The notes under the pieces were generated by a model. That model did not search any database and had not been told where the DNA came from. It worked only from the letters and a program-made list of their open reading frames with translations. Of a stretch of 21,622 nt of DNA, positions 1,885 through 15,916 are shown in pieces. The stretch's first letter is position 1. Every line of letters starts with the position of its first letter. This DNA is from a virus. The position numbers and the translations under genes are program-made. Where the stretch lies: IMG/VR virus record IMGVR_UViG_3300017773_005284, positions 1 to 21,622 of that record. One strand, given 5' to 3'.

Positions 1885-2147
1885 ATTTTTAATTTTAATT
1901 TACCCGTTCCTTTAATGACACGATGCCATTGATGTCTTTTTATAAATATACGTTCGTTTAAGGAAGATGGTAATTTATTATCTAATTGTAACATCCAATC
2001 AGTTTTACCTATTATTTCAATAGATCTATCTTCATCATCACGATGCCAAAGTAATTCAATAGGATCTATATTTTCACTAAATTCTCTTATAGTGTATTCT
2101 TTTGTAACCTCTAAGTCTTTATAAGGTTTTATTTTGTTTTCCCCCAT
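1866..2147 (-). CDS. small cupin-like protein
   Basis: 93 residues. The central part reads ELLWHRDDEDRSIEII (31-46) and then a strand-turn-strand pattern to IFIKRHQWHRVIKG (67-80). A His-x-Asp pair (H35, D37), Glu44 and His75 are spaced as in one-domain cupins, where two His and a Glu coordinate a metal in a small beta barrel. I recall similar short proteins from marine phages, but the assignment is a pattern match and the catalytic role, if any, is unknown. It overlaps both neighbours by 19 bases, which shows tight translational coupling between the basic protein upstream and the 281-residue protein downstream. Confidence 0.45.
   Translation of the reverse strand: MGENKIKPYKDLEVTKEYTIREFSENIDPIELLWHRDDEDRSIEIIGKTDWMLQLDNKLPSSLNERIFIKRHQWHRVIKGTGKLKLKIWQQHL
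1941..1950 (-). promoter_or_regulatory. TATATTTATA motif inside the cupin-like gene
   Basis: The coding strand reads CGTATATTTATAAAAAG here, 56 bases upstream of the ATG at 1884. It is the same ten-base motif found in the gaps before three other genes. Because it lies within a coding region, chance is a real alternative. Confidence 0.3.
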
Positions 2148-2590
2148 TTTTTACCTTTACCTTTATCTTTACATTTAGAAGGAGTAGGTCTACAGGATGG
2201 ATATTTTGCTCGTTTTTCACCTTCTTTTCTACCACAAGATTTATATTTCATCTTGCCTGTTTTTTTATCCTTTCTTCCAGTATTACAATCAACCCATCCC
2301 CCTCCTTTACCTGGGGCTCCTTGTCTTTTAAACCATTTATTTAAGGATTCATCAACAACTTTTTGAAGTCTTTTATACCCTGAGCCATAAGGTGATGATT
2401 TTCCATCATGATTATCAACTACATTTTCTTTAACTCCCTTCCAGATATTTCCTTTTCTACACCTTACTACAGCACCTGATTTATAAGCAGAGGGTTTGTC
2501 AAATTTACGATCGGCGATACGTAAACATCTATCCCTTTTTTTCTTTTTTTCAAGAATTACTTCTCTTATTATGTTATTTAATCTACTCAT
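2129..2590 (-). CDS. basic Cys-containing small phage protein
   Basis: 153 residues from the ATG at 2588-2590. This start is preferred to a TTG two codons upstream because the ATG overlaps the previous stop as TAATG, a junction also seen at 10034 and 15916. The protein is very rich in Lys and Arg. Its N-terminus (MSRLNNIIREVILEKKKK) is a short amphipathic stretch that ends in L-E before a lysine run. A central segment reads KPSAYKSGAVVRCRKG. The C-terminal half holds WFKRQGAPGKGGGW, then CGR and YPSCRPTPSKC, with six cysteines overall. This C-terminal pattern recalls small conserved proteins of marine phages and some large DNA viruses of eukaryotes, from memory only. Nucleic-acid binding or packaging inside the head is inferred from charge. 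Confidence 0.55.
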   Translation of the reverse strand: MSRLNNIIREVILEKKKKRDRCLRIADRKFDKPSAYKSGAVVRCRKGNIWKGVKENVVDNHDGKSSPYGSGYKRLQKVVDESLNKWFKRQGAPGKGGGWVDCNTGRKDKKTGKMKYKSCGRKEGEKRAKYPSCRPTPSKCKDKGKGKKWGKTK

Positions 2591-3360
2591 TACCAAAAAC
2601 CACTAAATGATGATTTTAATCCTAATAATTTAGCATATCTAGGAAGTCTACAACTCCAATACCCTGCTTTTGTTCTGTCTTTTTTCTGTGAACATTTATG
2701 TCTTTTAGCAAATGCAGAACGTGCTTTTGAGTCATTTATTTTTGCTCTTAAACCACCAGATCCAAATCTAACAGTTTTAACTTTTTTAGTTTTAGGATCT
2801 TTAACATATACTTTATAAGCTTTTCCACCTGAAGATGAGCGCATTGGTTTTCCTATTGGTCTATTGTCTTTTTTCTTAGCTTTTTTCTTTTTTGCTTCTA
2901 TAATATTAACTATTCTTTCTTCAATAGATTCAAATTTCATATTATCCATTTCATCACGAACCCATTCTTTCTCATTATCACCTAATTGGTCATAATCCAT
3001 TCCGAATTCCATATTCGCTAACTCATCTTCAAGATCCATTTGCTCATTTAATTCAATAGGAAAATCTAATGGTACTTTTTCACCTTCAAACATACCATAA
3101 TGTCCTAAATCAGTTTCTATAAGAATTTCTTTATCATCTCCTATTACTTCAAGTATTCCTCTACTATATAATGACCTTGCTTCTGCAAATAAATTAAAGT
3201 ATTCTTGTGAACCTGCCCTATATAAATGTTCAGTTAACGGTCTATTATTGTCCATATGGAATTTTAATCCTTCAGACAATATAGCCTTTGGAGCTTTATT
3301 TTCATTAAGTACTAACGCAGTACTTTTAGTTTTACATGAGCCGCATCCACATTTACACAT
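2590..3360 (-). CDS. 256-residue protein with N-terminal Cys cluster and basic C-terminal domain
   Basis: The protein begins with MCKCGCGSCK, four cysteines in the first nine residues, a possible metal knuckle. Residues 15-155 are acidic and contain L-N-E at 18-20 and 104-106, L-S-E at 28-30 and I-I-E-A at 153-156. From there the protein changes to a strongly basic domain: AKKKKAKKK (156-164), then KPMRSSSGGKAYKVYVKDP, FGSGGLRAKINDSKARSAFAKRHKC and GYWSCRLPRYAKLLG. I recall this last domain as common in marine T4-like phage proteins but know no function for it. The sharp acidic-to-basic switch suggests an acidic propeptide and a DNA-binding mature part. It lies 7 bases after the previous gene and overlaps the next by three bases. 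Confidence 0.5.
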   Translation of the reverse strand: MCKCGCGSCKTKSTALVLNENKAPKAILSEGLKFHMDNNRPLTEHLYRAGSQEYFNLFAEARSLYSRGILEVIGDDKEILIETDLGHYGMFEGEKVPLDFPIELNEQMDLEDELANMEFGMDYDQLGDNEKEWVRDEMDNMKFESIEERIVNIIEAKKKKAKKKDNRPIGKPMRSSSGGKAYKVYVKDPKTKKVKTVRFGSGGLRAKINDSKARSAFAKRHKCSQKKDRTKAGYWSCRLPRYAKLLGLKSSFSGFW

Positions 3361-6407: not shown

Positions 6408-7271
6408 TTATTTTATTAGCCCTGCTAATTTTTTAAATCTTTGTACTTCTTGTAAGTTTAATGCAGATTCAGCATCTAATACTCCAGCTACATCACTTTC
6501 ACCTCCAGTAACATCTAATTCTACTTCATTAGTAGCAACAACGTGTGCTCTAGTGTAATAAGTAATTGTATTTCCAATTTGGTCAAGTAATTTTTCATCA
6601 CCCATACCTTTAGCTTTTTCTTGGGCCTTAGTTAATAATCCTAATACAGCTGCTGTTTCTGAATCTTCTCCAGCTAATTCTGAATCTACTTCAATTTCTG
6701 ATTTGTCGGATACATCATCAACAGTAACGTCATCTTCTACATCTACGTCAACATTAACATCATCTTCTACATCTACATTAACATCTTCTTCTTCTGCTTC
6801 TTTAAGATCATCTTCTTCATAAGTAGAACCACGCATTCCTTCATCTATCTCTTCACCACGCATTGCTTCATCTACTTCCTCACCACGCATTGCTTCATCT
6901 AAATCTTCTTCATTTAATCTTTTCTTCATTGCCACCACAAATTTTTCGATCTTTGTAAGATAATCTTCATGATCTTCACGTGGTAATCCTCTCATAAAAT
7001 TAGCAATTTCTCTCATCTGTTCATTGTAATCTTTTCCATCACCGAATTCATTTAATGTAGTTTCATTAACATCATCTTTAAAGTCTTTTTTAAGTTTAGA
7101 TAACTTATCTTCATTATCTTTAATATCTTTTTCAAGATCTTTAATATGGTCTCTATCATCACGGATAGCACCTTCCATACGTTCTTGTTCTTCTTTGTTT
7201 CCTTTTTTAGAATCTTCATCTTCTCTAAGTAGAGATGACTTGATAAATTCTTTTAATTCAGATTTTTTCAT
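6408..7271 (-). CDS. acidic repeat-bearing 287-residue protein, possible head-core or scaffold protein
   Basis: The N-terminus MKKSELKEFIKSSLLRE is a short amphipathic helix ending in L-R-E. Residues 25-66 are a Lys/Glu/Asp-rich predicted coiled coil. Residues 125-149 hold three copies of a nine-residue repeat (DEAMRGEEV, DEAMRGEEI, DEGMRGS). Residues 163-186 are a V-N-V-D/V-D-V-E-D acidic low-complexity run. The C-terminal part contains ETAAVLGLLTKAQEKAKG and a DQIGNTITYYTRAHV helix, and ends RFKKLAGLIK. The high acidity, coiled coil and processing-like tripeptides resemble phage scaffold or prohead-core proteins, but no homology is claimed. L-N-E occurs at 73-75 and 119-121. A promoter-like motif precedes the gene, so it may head a transcript of the genes to its left. 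Confidence 0.45.
   Translation of the reverse strand: MKKSELKEFIKSSLLREDEDSKKGNKEEQERMEGAIRDDRDHIKDLEKDIKDNEDKLSKLKKDFKDDVNETTLNEFGDGKDYNEQMREIANFMRGLPREDHEDYLTKIEKFVVAMKKRLNEEDLDEAMRGEEVDEAMRGEEIDEGMRGSTYEEDDLKEAEEEDVNVDVEDDVNVDVDVEDDVTVDDVSDKSEIEVDSELAGEDSETAAVLGLLTKAQEKAKGMGDEKLLDQIGNTITYYTRAHVVATNEVELDVTGGESDVAGVLDAESALNLQEVQRFKKLAGLIK
6828..6908 (-). repeat. three tandem 27-base repeats in the acidic protein gene
   Basis: Three units run head to tail at 6828-6854, 6855-6881 and 6882-6908, each starting accacgcatt on the plus strand. The two right-hand units differ at only a few bases near their ends, and the left one adds a G-to-C change. Each unit codes for nine residues (DEAMRGEE plus one), so the reading frame is kept. 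The similarity at the DNA level suggests recent expansion by slippage. Confidence 0.9.
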
Positions 7272-7323: not shown

Positions 7324-8601
7324 TTATTTTTTATTATTTTTTTCTTTTAGTTGATTTTTGTAAACTTCTTTTACTAGTTTTTCTAACTTAAGTAAGTCAG
7401 GACCTGCTGGTTTTTTTCTTGGTTTTCCATCTGGTGTATAACCACATGAACCTTCATTGATTTGACTTATTATATAATCTAAAGCAGCCTCTTTATCTCC
7501 ATTGTGTAATTGATCAACAACTTTTTGACCTATCTCTGCATATTCACCATTAGTCTGTGAAGGACGTTCTCCAAACTTACTTTTAATATCTAAATATCCT
7601 GAACCAATTATAACTAAGTCCTCATCTGGATCGTCTAGATCTTCATTTAATCTATCAAATTTTGAAGATTTTTCAAATTCATCTCTAGTTATTGGATTTA
7701 TCTTAATATAATTTTTTACACCATTTTTACCCATAGTATAAGTACCAGTTTCATCAGTTATTTCTTCTCTACCTATTGCTTGATCATATGTAAGTTGTGC
7801 TTTTTCTTTTCCTTTATTTTTTATAAATCGAATAGCTTCTTCGTGGAAATGAATTTCATCAGCATATTGGTCTGATATAGGACCACCTTCTGGTTCTGCT
7901 TCCTGTTCCATATCTCTATAAAGTTGTTCAAGATTTCTTTCTAAATCTTCTAACTCATACCCATCAACTAAATCTGCTGATTTTTGGTGTAATTCTTTTA
8001 TAATATATTTTGTTCCTGATTCTAAACTATTAAAATCATCTAATTTTTTTAATTCTTTTTCTTTTCCATCTTTATCAACTGCAATTACAGAATCAATAGT
8101 AGATTTACCCATTCCATCATCACGTTTGCCTGCTAATTTTTGTTTTAGTTCAGATTTAGCTCTTCTTTTACTAACAAAGGCTTCTTTTATTTCTTGAAGT
8201 TCTTTAGGGGTTGCAAAAAATGAAACTGAAGCTGCCCATGATCTATCATCATCAATATCGGTTTCATAATCAGAAACACTTCCATACTCATAATCAAATT
8301 TATTAGTTATTTTATTTACTTTTTCAAATGCTTTTTGTAATTTTAAAATATCATCATTTTCAAAGTAATGATAACCTCTACCTGACATTCTTATATAATA
8401 TCCTTTTCTACCATCTGACATAGAGCCTCTAACTCTATCATCAAATTCTAACCCTGTTTCATCATTTATAGTTTTTACTAATTTTTTAAGATCATCTTCT
8501 TCTTCCATTTCATAAGGAGAAAGAGAATTTTCATTTAATTTAGAATATGATTCTTCTAAATATTGTTTTTTTAAATAATTATGTATACTGAATTTTTCCA
8601 T
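7324..8601 (-). CDS. 425-residue phage protein of unknown function
   Basis: I do not recognise the fold. The N-terminus MEKFSIHNYLKKQYLEE is an amphipathic stretch ending in L-E-E, soon followed by KLNENS (21-26). The middle is highly charged with predicted helices (for example ELEDLERNLEQLYRDMEQEAE, 216-236, given here as a coiled-coil candidate) and GRKGYYIRMSGRGYHYF (65-81) as a beta segment. L-N-E recurs at 318-320 before an Asp-rich run, and I-N-E at 381-383 before GSCGYTPDGKPRKKPAGP, a segment I recall from other marine phage proteins. These tripeptides could mark cleavage sites. It is flanked on both sides by gaps with the promoter-like motif. A packaged or head-core protein is a guess from context. 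Confidence 0.4.
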   Translation of the reverse strand: MEKFSIHNYLKKQYLEESYSKLNENSLSPYEMEEEDDLKKLVKTINDETGLEFDDRVRGSMSDGRKGYYIRMSGRGYHYFENDDILKLQKAFEKVNKITNKFDYEYGSVSDYETDIDDDRSWAASVSFFATPKELQEIKEAFVSKRRAKSELKQKLAGKRDDGMGKSTIDSVIAVDKDGKEKELKKLDDFNSLESGTKYIIKELHQKSADLVDGYELEDLERNLEQLYRDMEQEAEPEGGPISDQYADEIHFHEEAIRFIKNKGKEKAQLTYDQAIGREEITDETGTYTMGKNGVKNYIKINPITRDEFEKSSKFDRLNEDLDDPDEDLVIIGSGYLDIKSKFGERPSQTNGEYAEIGQKVVDQLHNGDKEAALDYIISQINEGSCGYTPDGKPRKKPAGPDLLKLEKLVKEVYKNQLKEKNNKK

Positions 8602-9227: not shown

Positions 9228-10034
9228 TTATTTTTTATATCCTACTGCTAGGGTGTTTATTTTATCTTTTGGTTTTTGTTCTTTTACTTTAGGTAATTCA
9301 GGTAATTGAGTTAAATATAATATTGATACTTCTTGAATTATAAAATTTAATTGTGTATGTGATAATTTTTCATCACTATATAAAGTTTTAATAAATTCAT
9401 ATGTTTTATTTAAAAAAAATGACATTGGGGGATTAACAGAATTAGAATTTTGTTTTAATTTTAATAAATACATTTTAAAATTATCTAATTCATCTTTTGA
9501 AAATTTTCTATCTAAATAATAATCTTTTATTTTATTTATAATTGATTTTAATTCTTTAGCTTTTACTAAATTATTAATAACTTTTTTTACTTTTGGGGTT
9601 CTAACATTATTTGATTGGGGAGTTGGTAATGATGAAATTGTTTCATTTTCAACAGGTAATGTATTATTATCTTCTTTTATAGGGTATATATTTATTTGTT
9701 CTAAACCCTTTATTACACATTTTAAATATAAATTATTAATTTTATCATCACTATATAAATTTTCAATAGCTGAAATAAATTTATTTGTAATTATACCTGG
9801 TGTTAAAACTTGGGCTCCCATCATATTAGTACCAGTTTCTAATGTTTTACATCTATTTATTATAAATTTTAATTCTTGTATTGAAATAGTATTTTTTAAA
9901 AATTGTTGTTCTATAACATTAATTAACTTTTCTGCATCTGTTAAATCATATATTTTAGGTGATTTAGTTGGTTTGTATTCATTCCTGTTTCTAGGAGAAC
10001 CACCATTATACCCTATATTATTAATAATACCCAT
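9228..10034 (-). CDS. 268-residue protein built from two diverged copies of one helical domain
   Basis: No known family is recognised. Two related segments are visible, about 34-115 and 159-241, set 124-125 residues apart. Both begin with a helix after A-E-K-L or A-K-E-L, carry a helix around the middle (ELKFIIN and ELDNFKMYL), and share a clear signature: ENLYSDDKIN (91-100) against KTLYSDEKLS (216-225), followed by a hydrophobic helix (YLKCVIKGL and QLNFIIQEV). They are joined by a Pro/Ser/Asn-rich linker (122-145). The C-terminus is a Pro/Lys tail. The start overlaps the stop of the 965-residue gene as TAATG. An all-helical adaptor or structural role is plausible but not shown. Confidence 0.5.
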   Translation of the reverse strand: MGIINNIGYNGGSPRNRNEYKPTKSPKIYDLTDAEKLINVIEQQFLKNTISIQELKFIINRCKTLETGTNMMGAQVLTPGIITNKFISAIENLYSDDKINNLYLKCVIKGLEQINIYPIKEDNNTLPVENETISSLPTPQSNNVRTPKVKKVINNLVKAKELKSIINKIKDYYLDRKFSKDELDNFKMYLLKLKQNSNSVNPPMSFFLNKTYEFIKTLYSDEKLSHTQLNFIIQEVSILYLTQLPELPKVKEQKPKDKINTLAVGYKK

Positions 10035-12931
10035 TAAAGTCCTAATTTTTTTAATTGAGAAATAGTATCAGCAGCAGATGTATGTAGTATTCCTATACCC
10101 CCCTGTGATATCCATTGATCTATATTTGATTTTCTATCATCAATTAATATGTGATTAGGAGCAGCATAATTTTGTTTATGTGATGCTTGTGCTAATGTTA
10201 ATTTTATACCAGGCATATTATTTCTTACCCATAATCTTTTACCTAATCTAGATGTTGAAGATCTTGAAGGAGAAGATAATAACTCTGTATCATAATCTTT
10301 AATATAATCCCAATATTGTTTTCCATCTTCCATCCAAGGCATTCCTACCCAAAATCCAACTTTACCAGTTCCATCAATTAACTCCCAAAATTTTTCTTTA
10401 CCGAATTTTTTTTCATAATCTCTAGGTGCTATTCCTTTTGAATATTTTTTAAATGATTCATCAAAATCAGTTAATACTCCATCCATATCAGAAAATATTT
10501 TATAATTTTCTGACTCCACTATTGGGTGATCCATTTCAATATCTTTTGCAAGCATATCACTATTAATAGCTTCTTCTAAACCCATAGCTAATTCTCTAGC
10601 ATATGCATTTAAACCAAATGGATCTTTTGTTTTTTTCTTTTCCTCTATACTAGATGTAATATCGCCATCTAAAGAATCAGTCCAATTTCTAAATACCATA
10701 TTACCTTCTTGATAAGCTTCTCTTTCAATTGCATCTAAATCTTCACTATCATTAGTATTATTAGTATTAATGTTATTTAATCTATCTTCTAACCATTGAG
10801 TATGGTGAACCATTTCATGAGAAAATGATCTTACTATATCTTTTGGATGTCTACCTTCAGTATATAAAGCTATTATTTGACTATTAGGATCATAATAAGC
10901 AGTTTTTCCAAAAAAATCTTTAGCATTTTCATTATCCCCATCTATAAATTCTATTTTAGGTAAAGGTTCTATATTTCTACCCTTTTCTATCATATAATTA
11001 GTTAAATCTTGAATCATTTGTTTATAATCAATATAATCAGAATATGTAGCATTTTCATTTAAATATTCTTTATCTAATTGTGGGTGATATCCTAAATATA
11101 CATTTTTAATATCCCCAAATGACTCACCGTCACCTCTTAATTCTGCAGGAACAATATTATCAGGTGTTTCATACCAATATTGTACATCATACCCTCCATC
11201 ACTTTTCCAAGTAACAATTAAACCTCTTTCATATTTTTCTGAATCTGCTTGTAATATTACTGGTTCATCTACTGGTAATACAATATTATTTTCTTTTATT
11301 AATTTTATTATTTTTTCCTCTAAAGCAATTACAGGTGTTGATGTTTTAAAATCTTTTTTTCTCATAACAGTTTTTGCAACTAAATCAATATCATTAGGCA
11401 TTACATTTATAGCAAATGGAATGTTAATGTTACTATTAAAATCTTTTACTACAGCATCAAAGTCATTATCAATTTTAGATAAAGATTTACCATGTTTTTT
11501 ATGTAAACGTTTAAACATACCTATGAGTTCAGCTACTGATATAGGTTTATTATTACGTTTATCATTTAATCTATCTAAAAAATGTTTTGTAAATTCAATA
11601 TCAATTCCTAATTTAGCAAATAATTTATCAGCATAATCTTCAATACTATCTAATTGAGTTTTAGTTACATTTTCATTTATACTCATCATCATATCATATG
11701 ATTTTGTTTTTAAATCATTTAATTGTCCTACAAAATCAGTTCTTCTTAAAACTTTAAAAGCTAAATTTTCTACACTATACTCTCCTCCTTTTAAAAGACC
11801 TGATGATCTCATATTTCTTAATCTTTCTTTTATTGAATTAACTAAGTCAATTACTTTTTGATATTCACCCCTATTAAATAATATTTCAATTTGAGGTAAT
11901 TGAGTTAAATATCCTTCAGCTTTTGATTTAATATCCTCTTTATCTATAACAATTTTATTTAAAACAGGTTCATTAATCCATTCATCATTTAATATTGAAT
12001 ACAATCCTGAAGCTGTATGATCATCGTTTTCATCCTCAACATAAACTTCAACTGGGTACCCAAACATATCTATATCATGTGTTTGGTTCCAAATTGATTT
12101 TTTAGCTAAAAAGTAATCTCTTGCAAATTCTTCATTATCTGCTATTTGGGAATAATCTAATACTAAATGTAAATCAACATCTGAAAATTTAGACCAATTA
12201 TAATTTGCTAAACTCCCAGTTAATTTAATATCTTTTAATATTGTACCTTCAGGTAATTCTAATGAATCAAAAAAATCTTGAGCAATAACTAATAATTTTT
12301 CTCTAATTTCAGGTTTTAATTTATTATCCTCCCAAACATCTGCAACTAGTGTGTCTTGTATATTAAATGAGTTTATAACTTCAGAAGGTATATCTTCATT
12401 TAATTTTTCAGCTGGTTTTAGTATATTATAAACTTCAATTTTTTCATCTATTGTTAATTCAAACGGAAGATATTTAATAAATTCTTCTTGAGATGTTGTT
12501 AATGCTTTTCTAGCATTTGTACCGCTCATATTTGGATCATAAGTAGGAATAACTTTAACTTCAATATTAGGATATTTTTCTTTTAAATTTCCTGTTCTAG
12601 CTGCTACATCCAATAAATCATCATCTCTTCCTTCTCTATAACCAATAACAAAATAAATAGTATCTTGTGGGTTATTTTTTGCTAAACGAAGAATATCTCC
12701 AATAGGTTGTTTAACTGGTTCTATTTTAACCTTATTTGCTAAATAGTTGTGGTATATATCCCATACTAAAGTAGATTCTTCTTGATCCATTCCTTCTCTT
12801 TCTTTAGCACCTACATAAATAATAAATTCATCAATTTCAGGATAATCATCTAATGCCTTTTTTACTATAGCAAAATGTCCTGCTGTTGGAGGTTTAAATC
12901 CTCCCCCGTATGCTGCTAATACTTTACCCAT
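10034..12931 (-). CDS. 965-residue multi-enzyme protein: HxGH nucleotidyltransferase, Pol-beta-type NTase, HExxH metallopeptidase and HAD phosphatase
   Basis: Domains in order. (1) 1-170, nucleotidyltransferase of the NMNAT/PPAT superfamily: GGFKPPTAGHF (10-20, T-x-G-H site) and SGTNARKAL (136-144). (2) About 190-400, Pol-beta-type nucleotidyltransferase: TGSLANYNWSKFSDVDLHLV (238-257), with Gly-Ser and Asp251/Asp253 as the metal-binding pair. (3) About 440-535, unknown, with FTKHFLDRLNDKRN and VMRKKDFKT. (4) About 630-790, zinc peptidase: SHEMVHHTQW with H705-E706-x-x-H709, and EREAYQEG (736-743) as a likely third-ligand helix. (5) About 810-965, HAD phosphatase: FSDMDGVLTDF (D815, D817), LLSSPS (884-889), LIDDRKSN (929-936). 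L-N-E or I-N-E occurs at 177, 418 and 624, close to domain boundaries. It overlaps the kinase gene by 8 bases. All five catalytic motifs look intact. The combined role is unknown. Confidence 0.75.
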   Translation of the reverse strand: MGKVLAAYGGGFKPPTAGHFAIVKKALDDYPEIDEFIIYVGAKEREGMDQEESTLVWDIYHNYLANKVKIEPVKQPIGDILRLAKNNPQDTIYFVIGYREGRDDDLLDVAARTGNLKEKYPNIEVKVIPTYDPNMSGTNARKALTTSQEEFIKYLPFELTIDEKIEVYNILKPAEKLNEDIPSEVINSFNIQDTLVADVWEDNKLKPEIREKLLVIAQDFFDSLELPEGTILKDIKLTGSLANYNWSKFSDVDLHLVLDYSQIADNEEFARDYFLAKKSIWNQTHDIDMFGYPVEVYVEDENDDHTASGLYSILNDEWINEPVLNKIVIDKEDIKSKAEGYLTQLPQIEILFNRGEYQKVIDLVNSIKERLRNMRSSGLLKGGEYSVENLAFKVLRRTDFVGQLNDLKTKSYDMMMSINENVTKTQLDSIEDYADKLFAKLGIDIEFTKHFLDRLNDKRNNKPISVAELIGMFKRLHKKHGKSLSKIDNDFDAVVKDFNSNINIPFAINVMPNDIDLVAKTVMRKKDFKTSTPVIALEEKIIKLIKENNIVLPVDEPVILQADSEKYERGLIVTWKSDGGYDVQYWYETPDNIVPAELRGDGESFGDIKNVYLGYHPQLDKEYLNENATYSDYIDYKQMIQDLTNYMIEKGRNIEPLPKIEFIDGDNENAKDFFGKTAYYDPNSQIIALYTEGRHPKDIVRSFSHEMVHHTQWLEDRLNNINTNNTNDSEDLDAIEREAYQEGNMVFRNWTDSLDGDITSSIEEKKKTKDPFGLNAYARELAMGLEEAINSDMLAKDIEMDHPIVESENYKIFSDMDGVLTDFDESFKKYSKGIAPRDYEKKFGKEKFWELIDGTGKVGFWVGMPWMEDGKQYWDYIKDYDTELLSSPSRSSTSRLGKRLWVRNNMPGIKLTLAQASHKQNYAAPNHILIDDRKSNIDQWISQGGIGILHTSAADTISQLKKLGL

Positions 12932-13721
12932 TTAAAAATTGTTTTAATCTCATTTGTGCCTCTTCTTTAGATATAGTGTATTCAACTACATCATATATAA
13001 AATCATCACTTAACATAGCTTGGATTTCTTCTTTATCTTTAGCCTTTCTTTCATCAGATTTTTTCTGTTGTGATGGTGTTTTAGGTTTTGTGCCCGTGGG
13101 TTTGAATGGTTCAAGATATTTATCTATGATTTTATCTATATCTTGCATTCTATCATCTAAGGTATTAGCTACAGCAACAAAATTATCACCAAATAAATCA
13201 GCATATTTAGGTAAATTATCTGTTACACTTTTCCAAGTACGCATTACAATAGCAGGTGCTAAACTTCTATCTTTACCCTCTGATTTTTCATATCTATCTT
13301 GGTTTTGACTTAGGGAACGTTGTAAATCTGTATAAACATAAAGCATAAATACTTCATATCCTGCTTCTTCTAATTCATTTTTTAATTTAGATGTTGCATT
13401 ATATGAAGCTCCTGTACCGTCTAAAATAAATGATTCTTTTCCATCTATAGTAGCATCTACATCACCTTTGAATTGTTTATTTGCTGCTGCCATTTGTTTA
13501 GCTTGCTCACTTCTTTCTTCAGGAGTAGCATTTTTTAAATCTAGAGTAACATTAGCTTTTTTTAATAAAGGAACATAAATATCATCTACATTTAATATTT
13601 TTATACCTCCTAAATCTAAACCCCGTAATATATAGCCTTTACCTGCTCCTGGGGCTCCTGCTAATATAATGGCTTTTGGTTTATTTATTGCTTCTTTTAA
13701 AATGTTAATTAAGCTTATCAT
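12924..13721 (-). CDS. P-loop kinase (zeta-toxin/polynucleotide-kinase-like)
   Basis: 265 residues. A Walker A motif, GAPGAGKG, lies at 22-29, a NVDD segment at 44-47 and a Walker-B-like FILDGTG at 98-104, where Asp101 would coordinate magnesium. LYVYTDLQRSLSQNQDR (127-143) looks like a lid helix with arginines. This layout fits the AAA_33/zeta-toxin group of small ATP- or GTP-binding kinases that act on nucleotides, nucleic-acid ends or sugar nucleotides. The substrate cannot be told. The N-terminus MISLINILKEAINK precedes the catalytic core by about ten residues and resembles T4 capsid-targeting peptides (L-K-E before Ala). The C-terminal 60 residues are a charged helical extension. The gene overlaps the next by 8 bases and is preceded by a promoter-like motif. 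Confidence 0.7.
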   Translation of the reverse strand: MISLINILKEAINKPKAIILAGAPGAGKGYILRGLDLGGIKILNVDDIYVPLLKKANVTLDLKNATPEERSEQAKQMAAANKQFKGDVDATIDGKESFILDGTGASYNATSKLKNELEEAGYEVFMLYVYTDLQRSLSQNQDRYEKSEGKDRSLAPAIVMRTWKSVTDNLPKYADLFGDNFVAVANTLDDRMQDIDKIIDKYLEPFKPTGTKPKTPSQQKKSDERKAKDKEEIQAMLSDDFIYDVVEYTISKEEAQMRLKQFLNG

Positions 13722-15457: not shown

Positions 15458-15916
15458 TTATTTTATGTCTCCAAAGTCACGTGTAAAAAACTTACCTAAT
15501 ATATTATCATTAAAATACTCATCTGGTTTTTGTAGAACTTCATATAAAAATTGATATTTAGTTTCAAAATAAGTTAAAGATTTTTTACTAGTACATAAAT
15601 GCAATATTTCTCTTTTAAAATTTTTTTTATCTTCTTTTTTTAAGAGTTCTGTAAGTTGTTTATTGGATCCAAAATATGTTTTCCAATCAGATTCTTTTGA
15701 AACTATTTTAAATTTAGGAGGTCTACCTTTTTGACCCTCAAATATTTTTAATTCTTTTTTACCTAATTTTTGTTTACGAGTAAAAACAAGAAATTTTTTA
15801 CCAATATATTTTTTATTTGAAGGGATATGGGTTGTAACATATACAAATCCCATTATGTTAGTATCAAAATCATTAATGGAATTTATTTCTTTATTTCTAT
15901 ATATCCACTTATCCAT
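15458..15916 (-). CDS. GIY-YIG family nuclease
   Basis: 152 residues. The G-I-Y element appears as GFVY (23-26) and the Y-I-G element as KYIGKK (36-41). A basic stretch (RKQKLGKKELK) follows, then SDWKTYFGSN (76-85), KREIL (101-105) with the expected Arg102, YFETKYQF (116-123) with the metal-binding Glu118, and YFNDNILGKFF (134-144) with the conserved Asn region. This is a complete single-domain GIY-YIG core without an extra DNA-binding domain. Such proteins are often homing endonucleases or repair and recombination nucleases in T4-like phages. Which one applies is not clear. Its start overlaps the stop of the 462-residue virion-type gene by one base (TAATG), so it is not simply an intron-borne insertion. 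Confidence 0.7.
   Translation of the reverse strand: MDKWIYRNKEINSINDFDTNIMGFVYVTTHIPSNKKYIGKKFLVFTRKQKLGKKELKIFEGQKGRPPKFKIVSKESDWKTYFGSNKQLTELLKKEDKKNFKREILHLCTSKKSLTYFETKYQFLYEVLQKPDEYFNDNILGKFFTRDFGDIK

Follow-up and report, generated by a model that had tools for sequence, protein, structure and literature searches.

Positions 1 to 21,622 of IMG/VR virus record IMGVR_UViG_3300017773_005284 (the whole stretch of 21,622 nucleotides, referred to here as the window) contain a gene for a 965-amino-acid (aa) protein at 10034-12931. The original prediction was that this frame joins four enzymes, namely, an HxGH-type nucleotidyltransferase, a Pol-beta-type nucleotidyltransferase, an HExxH peptidase, and a HAD phosphatase, around one unknown middle domain, and that it might be a polyprotein with cut sites of the T4 gp21 type. 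The frame and its four enzyme motifs proved to be present, on the minus strand (12931 to 10034, 965 codons, N terminus MGKVLAAYGGG); a plus-strand reading was ruled out by its many stops. The supposed single middle domain, however, consists of two modules, residues 421-537 (phrog_23027/phrog_14518) and 540-623, giving six modules in all. These modules and the candidate cut sites are listed below, with an arrow marking the predicted cut.

10034..12931, minus strand: gene for the 965-aa modular chain; open frame, with relatives in which modules are swapped
12404..12931, minus strand: module 1, residues 1-176, HxGH nucleotidyltransferase (NMNAT/CoaD-like); GGGFKPPTAGH motif, CoaD/NadD as Foldseek matches, predicted local distance difference test score (pLDDT) mostly 70-90
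12395..12403, minus strand: candidate cut site LNE↓D, residues 177-179; module edge, pLDDT below 50 at 175-178
11681..12394, minus strand: module 2, residues 180-417, Pol-beta-type nucleotidyltransferase; phrog_36119 (E value, 1.5e-43), single-gene relatives
11672..11680, minus strand: candidate cut site INE↓N, residues 418-420; relatives join module 3 here to other upstream modules via [LIV]xE
11321..11671, minus strand: module 3, residues 421-537, small domain with conserved H/D/R/K/T; phrog_23027 and phrog_14518, 363 IMG/VR loci, invariant columns
11315..11323, minus strand: candidate cut site LEE↓K, residues 537-539; relatives have LNE↓ or LQE↓ here, pLDDT low at 537-541
11063..11314, minus strand: module 4, residues 540-623, small domain, predicted to be mostly beta strands; single-gene relatives with targeting peptides
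11054..11062, minus strand: candidate cut site LNE↓N, residues 624-626; 31 of 31 genuine module 5 starts preceded by [LIVM]xE, low pLDDT at 587-633
10562..11053, minus strand: module 5, residues 627-790 (627 to about 780 in one delimitation), HExxH zincin; SHEMVHH motif, conserved in relatives
10571..10579, minus strand: candidate cut site LEE↓A, residues 785-787; relatives insert modules just after the equivalent stretch (GLEEAILNE↓GKYDSL), low pLDDT at 739-807
10514..10522, minus strand: candidate cut site IVE↓S, residues 804-806; immediately precedes the HAD module, low pLDDT
10037..10516, minus strand: module 6, residues 806-965, HAD phosphatase (5'-3' deoxyribonucleotidase type); phrog_2643, HAD fold, own gene with targeting peptide in relatives

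The six modules and the candidate cut sites

The predicted fold of module 1 gave CoaD and NadD as its best Foldseek matches (E value, 4e-5; target template-modeling score, about 0.7), while its Pfam and NCBIfam matches lie below cut-off and no curated family cut-off is reached. The modeled fold and the motif together place it in the HxGH NMN/pantetheine-phosphate adenylyltransferase family without fixing the substrate. Cyanophages and a Maribacter phage encode module 2 as a stand-alone gene, and huge phages match it as well. Module 3, modeled at a pLDDT of 80 to 92, has H30, D33, R34, K100, T101, and R104 as invariant alignment positions; an RNase-like role is a guess. We claim no fold name for it, as the HAD domain dominated the structure-search matches, and neither the whole chain nor module 3 gave anything useful when searched by sequence against solved structures. 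Module 5 matches Pfam Peptidase_M91 only below cut-off. A match to phrog_2643, a 5'-3' deoxyribonucleotidase family (E value, 8.9e-23), a DMDGV motif that fits DxDG(V), and similarity to HAD folds (Z score up to 11.8) identify module 6 as a HAD of the 5'-3' deoxyribonucleotidase type. Cutting at the module edges would yield products of about 20, 28, 14, 10, 19, and 18 kDa.

T4 gp21 cuts after L/I-x-E (PMC9026906). The original prediction placed LNE or INE followed by Asp or Asn near three junctions, and the residue numbers are exact (LNED at 177-180, INEN at 418-421, and LNEN at 624-627). All three sites stand, but they belong to a set of about five or six, in which [L/I]-x-E ends at residues 179, 420, 539, 626, 787, and 806. 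The short motif by itself is no evidence, because [LI]xE occurs 15 times in the chain compared with 13.2 expected, and we dropped the raw count. The longer pattern [LI]NE[DN] occurs 3 times compared with 0.14 expected and was equaled in 0.035% of shuffles, but it was chosen post hoc, after the sequence had been seen. The decisive test is the analysis of homologs, described below.

In an AlphaFold model of the full chain, modules 1 and 2 are confident (pLDDT mostly 70 to 93) and residues 175-178 fall below 50. A model of residues 418-965 has low-confidence stretches at 537-541, 587-633, and 739-807, which contain the sites at 539, 626, 787, and 806; most of the other [LI]xE tripeptides lie within confidently modeled parts. 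Within the limits set by shallow alignments, the candidate sites are thus predicted to lie in low-confidence linkers and not to be buried in folds, as the polyprotein proposal would have it.

Module exchange and the motif at module boundaries

Relatives of the chain were found at 67 IMG/VR loci, with complete chains of about 380 to 1312 aa. Among them, modules are inserted, deleted, and reordered: the ends (module 1 on one side and modules 5 and 6 on the other) are mostly retained, and the middle is exchanged. The exchanged parts include a second zincin type starting with G[KR]YD, a basic DPKKGTGKKP module, a zinc ribbon, and others, in varying order. When close relatives were aligned, modules 2 and 4 were missing exactly between [LIV]xE sites, module 4 between the site at 537-539 and residue 626, and a zinc ribbon was inserted exactly between two such sites.

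We analyzed the break-points of homology in 68 non-redundant multi-module chains using strict alignments. A first statistic based on loose alignments was noisy and was superseded, and one mixed-piece alignment (A1) was discarded because it was misaligned. [LIVM]xE adjoins 41% of homology starts and 54% of ends, compared with 17% of random positions (maximum of 300 draws, 21 to 23%). The position of the Glu peaks at the third residue of the homology block at starts and at the last residue at ends. The control motifs [other]xE, [LIVM]xD, and [LIVM]xK showed no excess over chance at the break-points of these chains. Individual modules gave the same picture, with [LIVM]xE preceding 19 of 21 starts of module 3, all 23 recognizable starts of the GxYD zincin module, and 31 of 32 matches to the module 5 start NA[ST]Y, the sole exception being an unrelated match. 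The motif first proposed, with Leu or Ile at P3, therefore needs widening, as Val and Met occur there too. The codons of the motif differ among copies (TTA/CTT/ATT/GTA AAT/AAC GAA), and the constraint is therefore at the protein level.

These results bear on the possibility that the chain works uncut as a stable multi-domain enzyme, its linkers serving merely to connect domains and LNE reflecting linker habit or a recombination scar. Linker composition can be conserved, and the window chain has no targeting peptide, both of which would suit such an enzyme. However, the enrichment is specific to the motif, with negative controls, and both synonymous and L/I/V variation speak against a DNA scar. 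Further, single-gene forms of the modules swap the upstream linker for a targeting peptide that ends in the same motif. We consider an uncut enzyme unlikely.

Protease, targeting peptides, and neighboring genes

The original prediction suggested looking for a prohead protease elsewhere in the genome. One gp21-type protease (PF03420) per genome, above the curated cut-off, was found in 12 of 12 longer relatives searched; the protease of the window phage is inferred from these relatives because the window holds no head genes. In the same 12 relatives and in Flavobacterium phage immuto, the propeptide of the major capsid protein ends around residue 60 at a conserved [LI]VxE, and a scaffold-like protein is dense in [LIVM]xE.

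The chain's own peptidase domain had been named as another possible cutter. Under this alternative, the chain is a self-cutting polyvalent protein, with the HExxH zincin freeing its companion modules in either the head or the host; DdrB-type proteins of phage P1 have been proposed to work in this way. No domain is commoner in polyvalent proteins than the zincin, for which a role in processing them has been proposed (PMC5512222), and the HExxH of the window chain is intact. Nevertheless, five multi-module chains that contain no zincin (L005, L006, L028, L064, and the 1305-aa L099) keep [LIVM]xE at their junctions, which makes self-cutting unlikely, and the motif fits the prohead protease and is found in capsid and scaffold proteins. 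Taken together, we regard self-cutting as quite unlikely. The zincin-free chain of L099 (L099:1603-5520) combines NMNAT-like, HAD-like, Pol-beta, basic DPKKGTG, and KxDG ligase-like parts with [LI]xE at the junctions, a list that suggests RNA-repair-like cargo.

Internal head proteins of T4 are targeted by 10-residue peptides, and the 10 N-terminal residues of IPIII suffice for packaging (PMC9026906). Many relatives of the chain have an amphipathic-looking N-terminal peptide ending in [LIM]xE ahead of module 1, e.g., MNELTKFLIKE↓, MNQLTKFLVDGILNE↓, and MNKLAAELVKGILSE↓. Modules encoded as single genes often have a targeting-like start, including MKTFSQYISE↓RVSKSDLDQ (module 3), MYKLTDLYKQIKE↓ (HAD), MIKLIDILFE↓GDPKVGTG, and MQLTLSDILFE↓GKYDSL; in these single-gene forms, the peptide takes the place of the upstream linker. 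In a relative of 164 kb, the chain gene lies within the gp20-gp23 cluster, where 15 of 30 genes have an N-terminal [LIVM]xE compared with 28 of 131 genes otherwise (P = 0.003).

Module 3 is very common in marine phages (L206-L258), where many single-gene copies start with MITQSDL and no targeting peptide and others start with MKTFSQYISE↓; the phiM12 and Melnitz copies show no clean targeting peptide plus [LI]xE. At L022-L026, the region upstream of the chain has module 1 starting with a targeting-like and possibly GTG-initiated VNRLVQELI(R/K)PFL(N/G)E, a type of start that ATG-only gene finding misses. A frameshift fusion with the upstream kinase gene as the source of a targeting peptide was rejected, as the overlap frames differ between relatives.

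Based on these results, the window chain is probably a polyprotein of modular design that a T4-related marine phage packages in its head and that the prohead protease cuts, a reading in line with each comparative test run (swap boundaries with controls, protease, targeting peptides, and linkers). Short linkers that end in [LIV]xE, most often LNE, would connect up to six independent modules, and the chain would enter the prohead core together with other internal proteins. At head maturation, the gp21-type protease would cut after each Glu, and the freed enzymes would be injected along with the DNA, with nucleotides, RNA, or proteins (host proteins among them) as their targets as infection begins. 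Since flanking [LIV]xE would suffice for the release of any module, modules could be added or removed. An injected kit of this kind suits the mix of two nucleotidyltransferases, a nucleotidase, a putative protease, and a neighboring Zeta-toxin-type kinase, although a role in NAD, RNA, or nucleotide chemistry is a guess. We lean toward a broader view as well, in which T4-related marine phages carry plug-in cargo: modules placed between [LIV]xE tags would be packaged, freed, and injected, and recombination at the tags would reshuffle the kit.

Several observations weigh against this proposal. The window chain and about ten close relatives begin at the first enzyme, with none of the short N-terminal [LI]xE targeting peptides of T4-type internal proteins, and a stop codon lies just upstream of the chain start in the window. 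One can argue that this subgroup still meets the protease, since its sites are kept. A targeting peptide is also missing from the start of many stand-alone module 3 genes in other phages, and PF03420 was not found in the 21,622-base window. About half of the break-points have no motif nearby, and counts of break-points taken from a single protein family are not independent of each other. Finally, AlphaFold confidence is moderate, and the low-confidence linkers could partly reflect shallow alignments.

The chain might instead be made and cut but act in the producing cell, in late nucleotide salvage, with no injection. Phage DNA metabolism could make use of the nucleotidyltransferase and deoxyribonucleotidase modules, and this subgroup lacks the targeting peptide. 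However, cutting by the prohead protease would require entry into the prohead, and close relatives and neighboring genes carry targeting peptides. We judge this alternative very unlikely.

The neighboring genes with targeting-like starts, recognized by sequence, are as follows.

12924..13721, minus strand: Zeta-toxin/AAA_33-type kinase (Pfam E value, 8e-17), targeting-like start MISLINILKE↓A
7324..8601, minus strand: neighbor with targeting-like start MEKFSIHNYLKKQYLEE↓SYSKLNE↓N
6408..7271, minus strand: neighbor with targeting-like start MKKSELKEFIKSSLLRE↓D
2129..2596, minus strand: basic neighbor with targeting-like start MSRLNNIIRE↓VILE↓K; linker-like stretch in common with the chains

The start of the kinase closely resembles a T4 targeting peptide, and the end of its gene overlaps the start of the chain gene by 8 bases. 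At 2129-3360 on the minus strand, basic lysine-rich proteins begin in targeting-like fashion or contain LNE↓N and IIE↓A sites and are possibly further head-packaged polyproteins. The gene at 15458-15916 (minus strand) matches a PHROG named "NAD synthetase" and homing-endonuclease families; that PHROG name, which the immuto gene also bears, may be a misnomer.

Comparison with known systems

If the proposal is correct, the changeable enzyme set that tailed phages deliver on infection is made as a true polyprotein, as is best known from RNA viruses of animals. This would provide a reading rule for hundreds of poorly annotated marine phage genes (labeled NMN adenylyltransferase or unknown), and modules of long-unknown function would become predicted injected effectors. 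The reading can be tested directly in a cultured phage. A literature search covering journals open without subscription turned up no earlier account of polyproteins processed by a prohead protease of the T4 type.

Flavobacterium phage immuto encodes a similar chain, QQO92100.1 (907 aa, annotated as NadR), with NMNAT, zincin, and GxYD modules and [LVM]xE ahead of modules. Its module order differs from that of the window chain, its annotation is that of a metabolic enzyme, and no relative of modules 2 and 3 was seen within it; a HAD gene with a targeting-like start of its own adjoins it.

The polyvalent proteins of phages and plasmids (Iyer et al. 2017, PMC5512222) combine disparate enzymatic domains, including zincin and Pol-beta nucleotidyltransferase domains, in one polypeptide that is believed to accompany the DNA into the host. 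The window chain likewise has several disparate enzymatic domains in one chain of a mobile element. Release of polyvalent proteins is ascribed to embedded peptidases (PMC5512222), whereas the junctions here carry candidate prohead-protease sites, which zincin-free relatives keep. T4-type Alt ADP-ribosyltransferases are not counted as genuine polyvalent proteins (PMC5512222).

The giant-phage head proteins phiKZ gp175 and SPN3US gp245 are packaged in the head and matured by a gp21-related protease after a short Glu-ending motif, as we propose for the chain. In the available text of the sources (PMC9026906, PMC10052503), this maturation is described as propeptide removal from single proteins, unlike the processing proposed here.

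A close parallel to the way in which the chain would be packaged is provided by the T4 internal head proteins IPI-III and Alt (PMC9026906, PMC3012670), which share the cut motif with the chain and, like it, are diverse cargo. They have a short targeting peptide like that of many relatives (MKTFSQYISE↓ has ten residues, as in T4 IPIII), and a gp21-type protease is present in the relatives. The T4 proteins are single and trimmed at their ends, whereas here as many as six modules or more, unrelated to each other, share one chain, and every junction has a candidate site. If the reading holds, the chain would be a natural multi-cargo form of T4-type head packaging.

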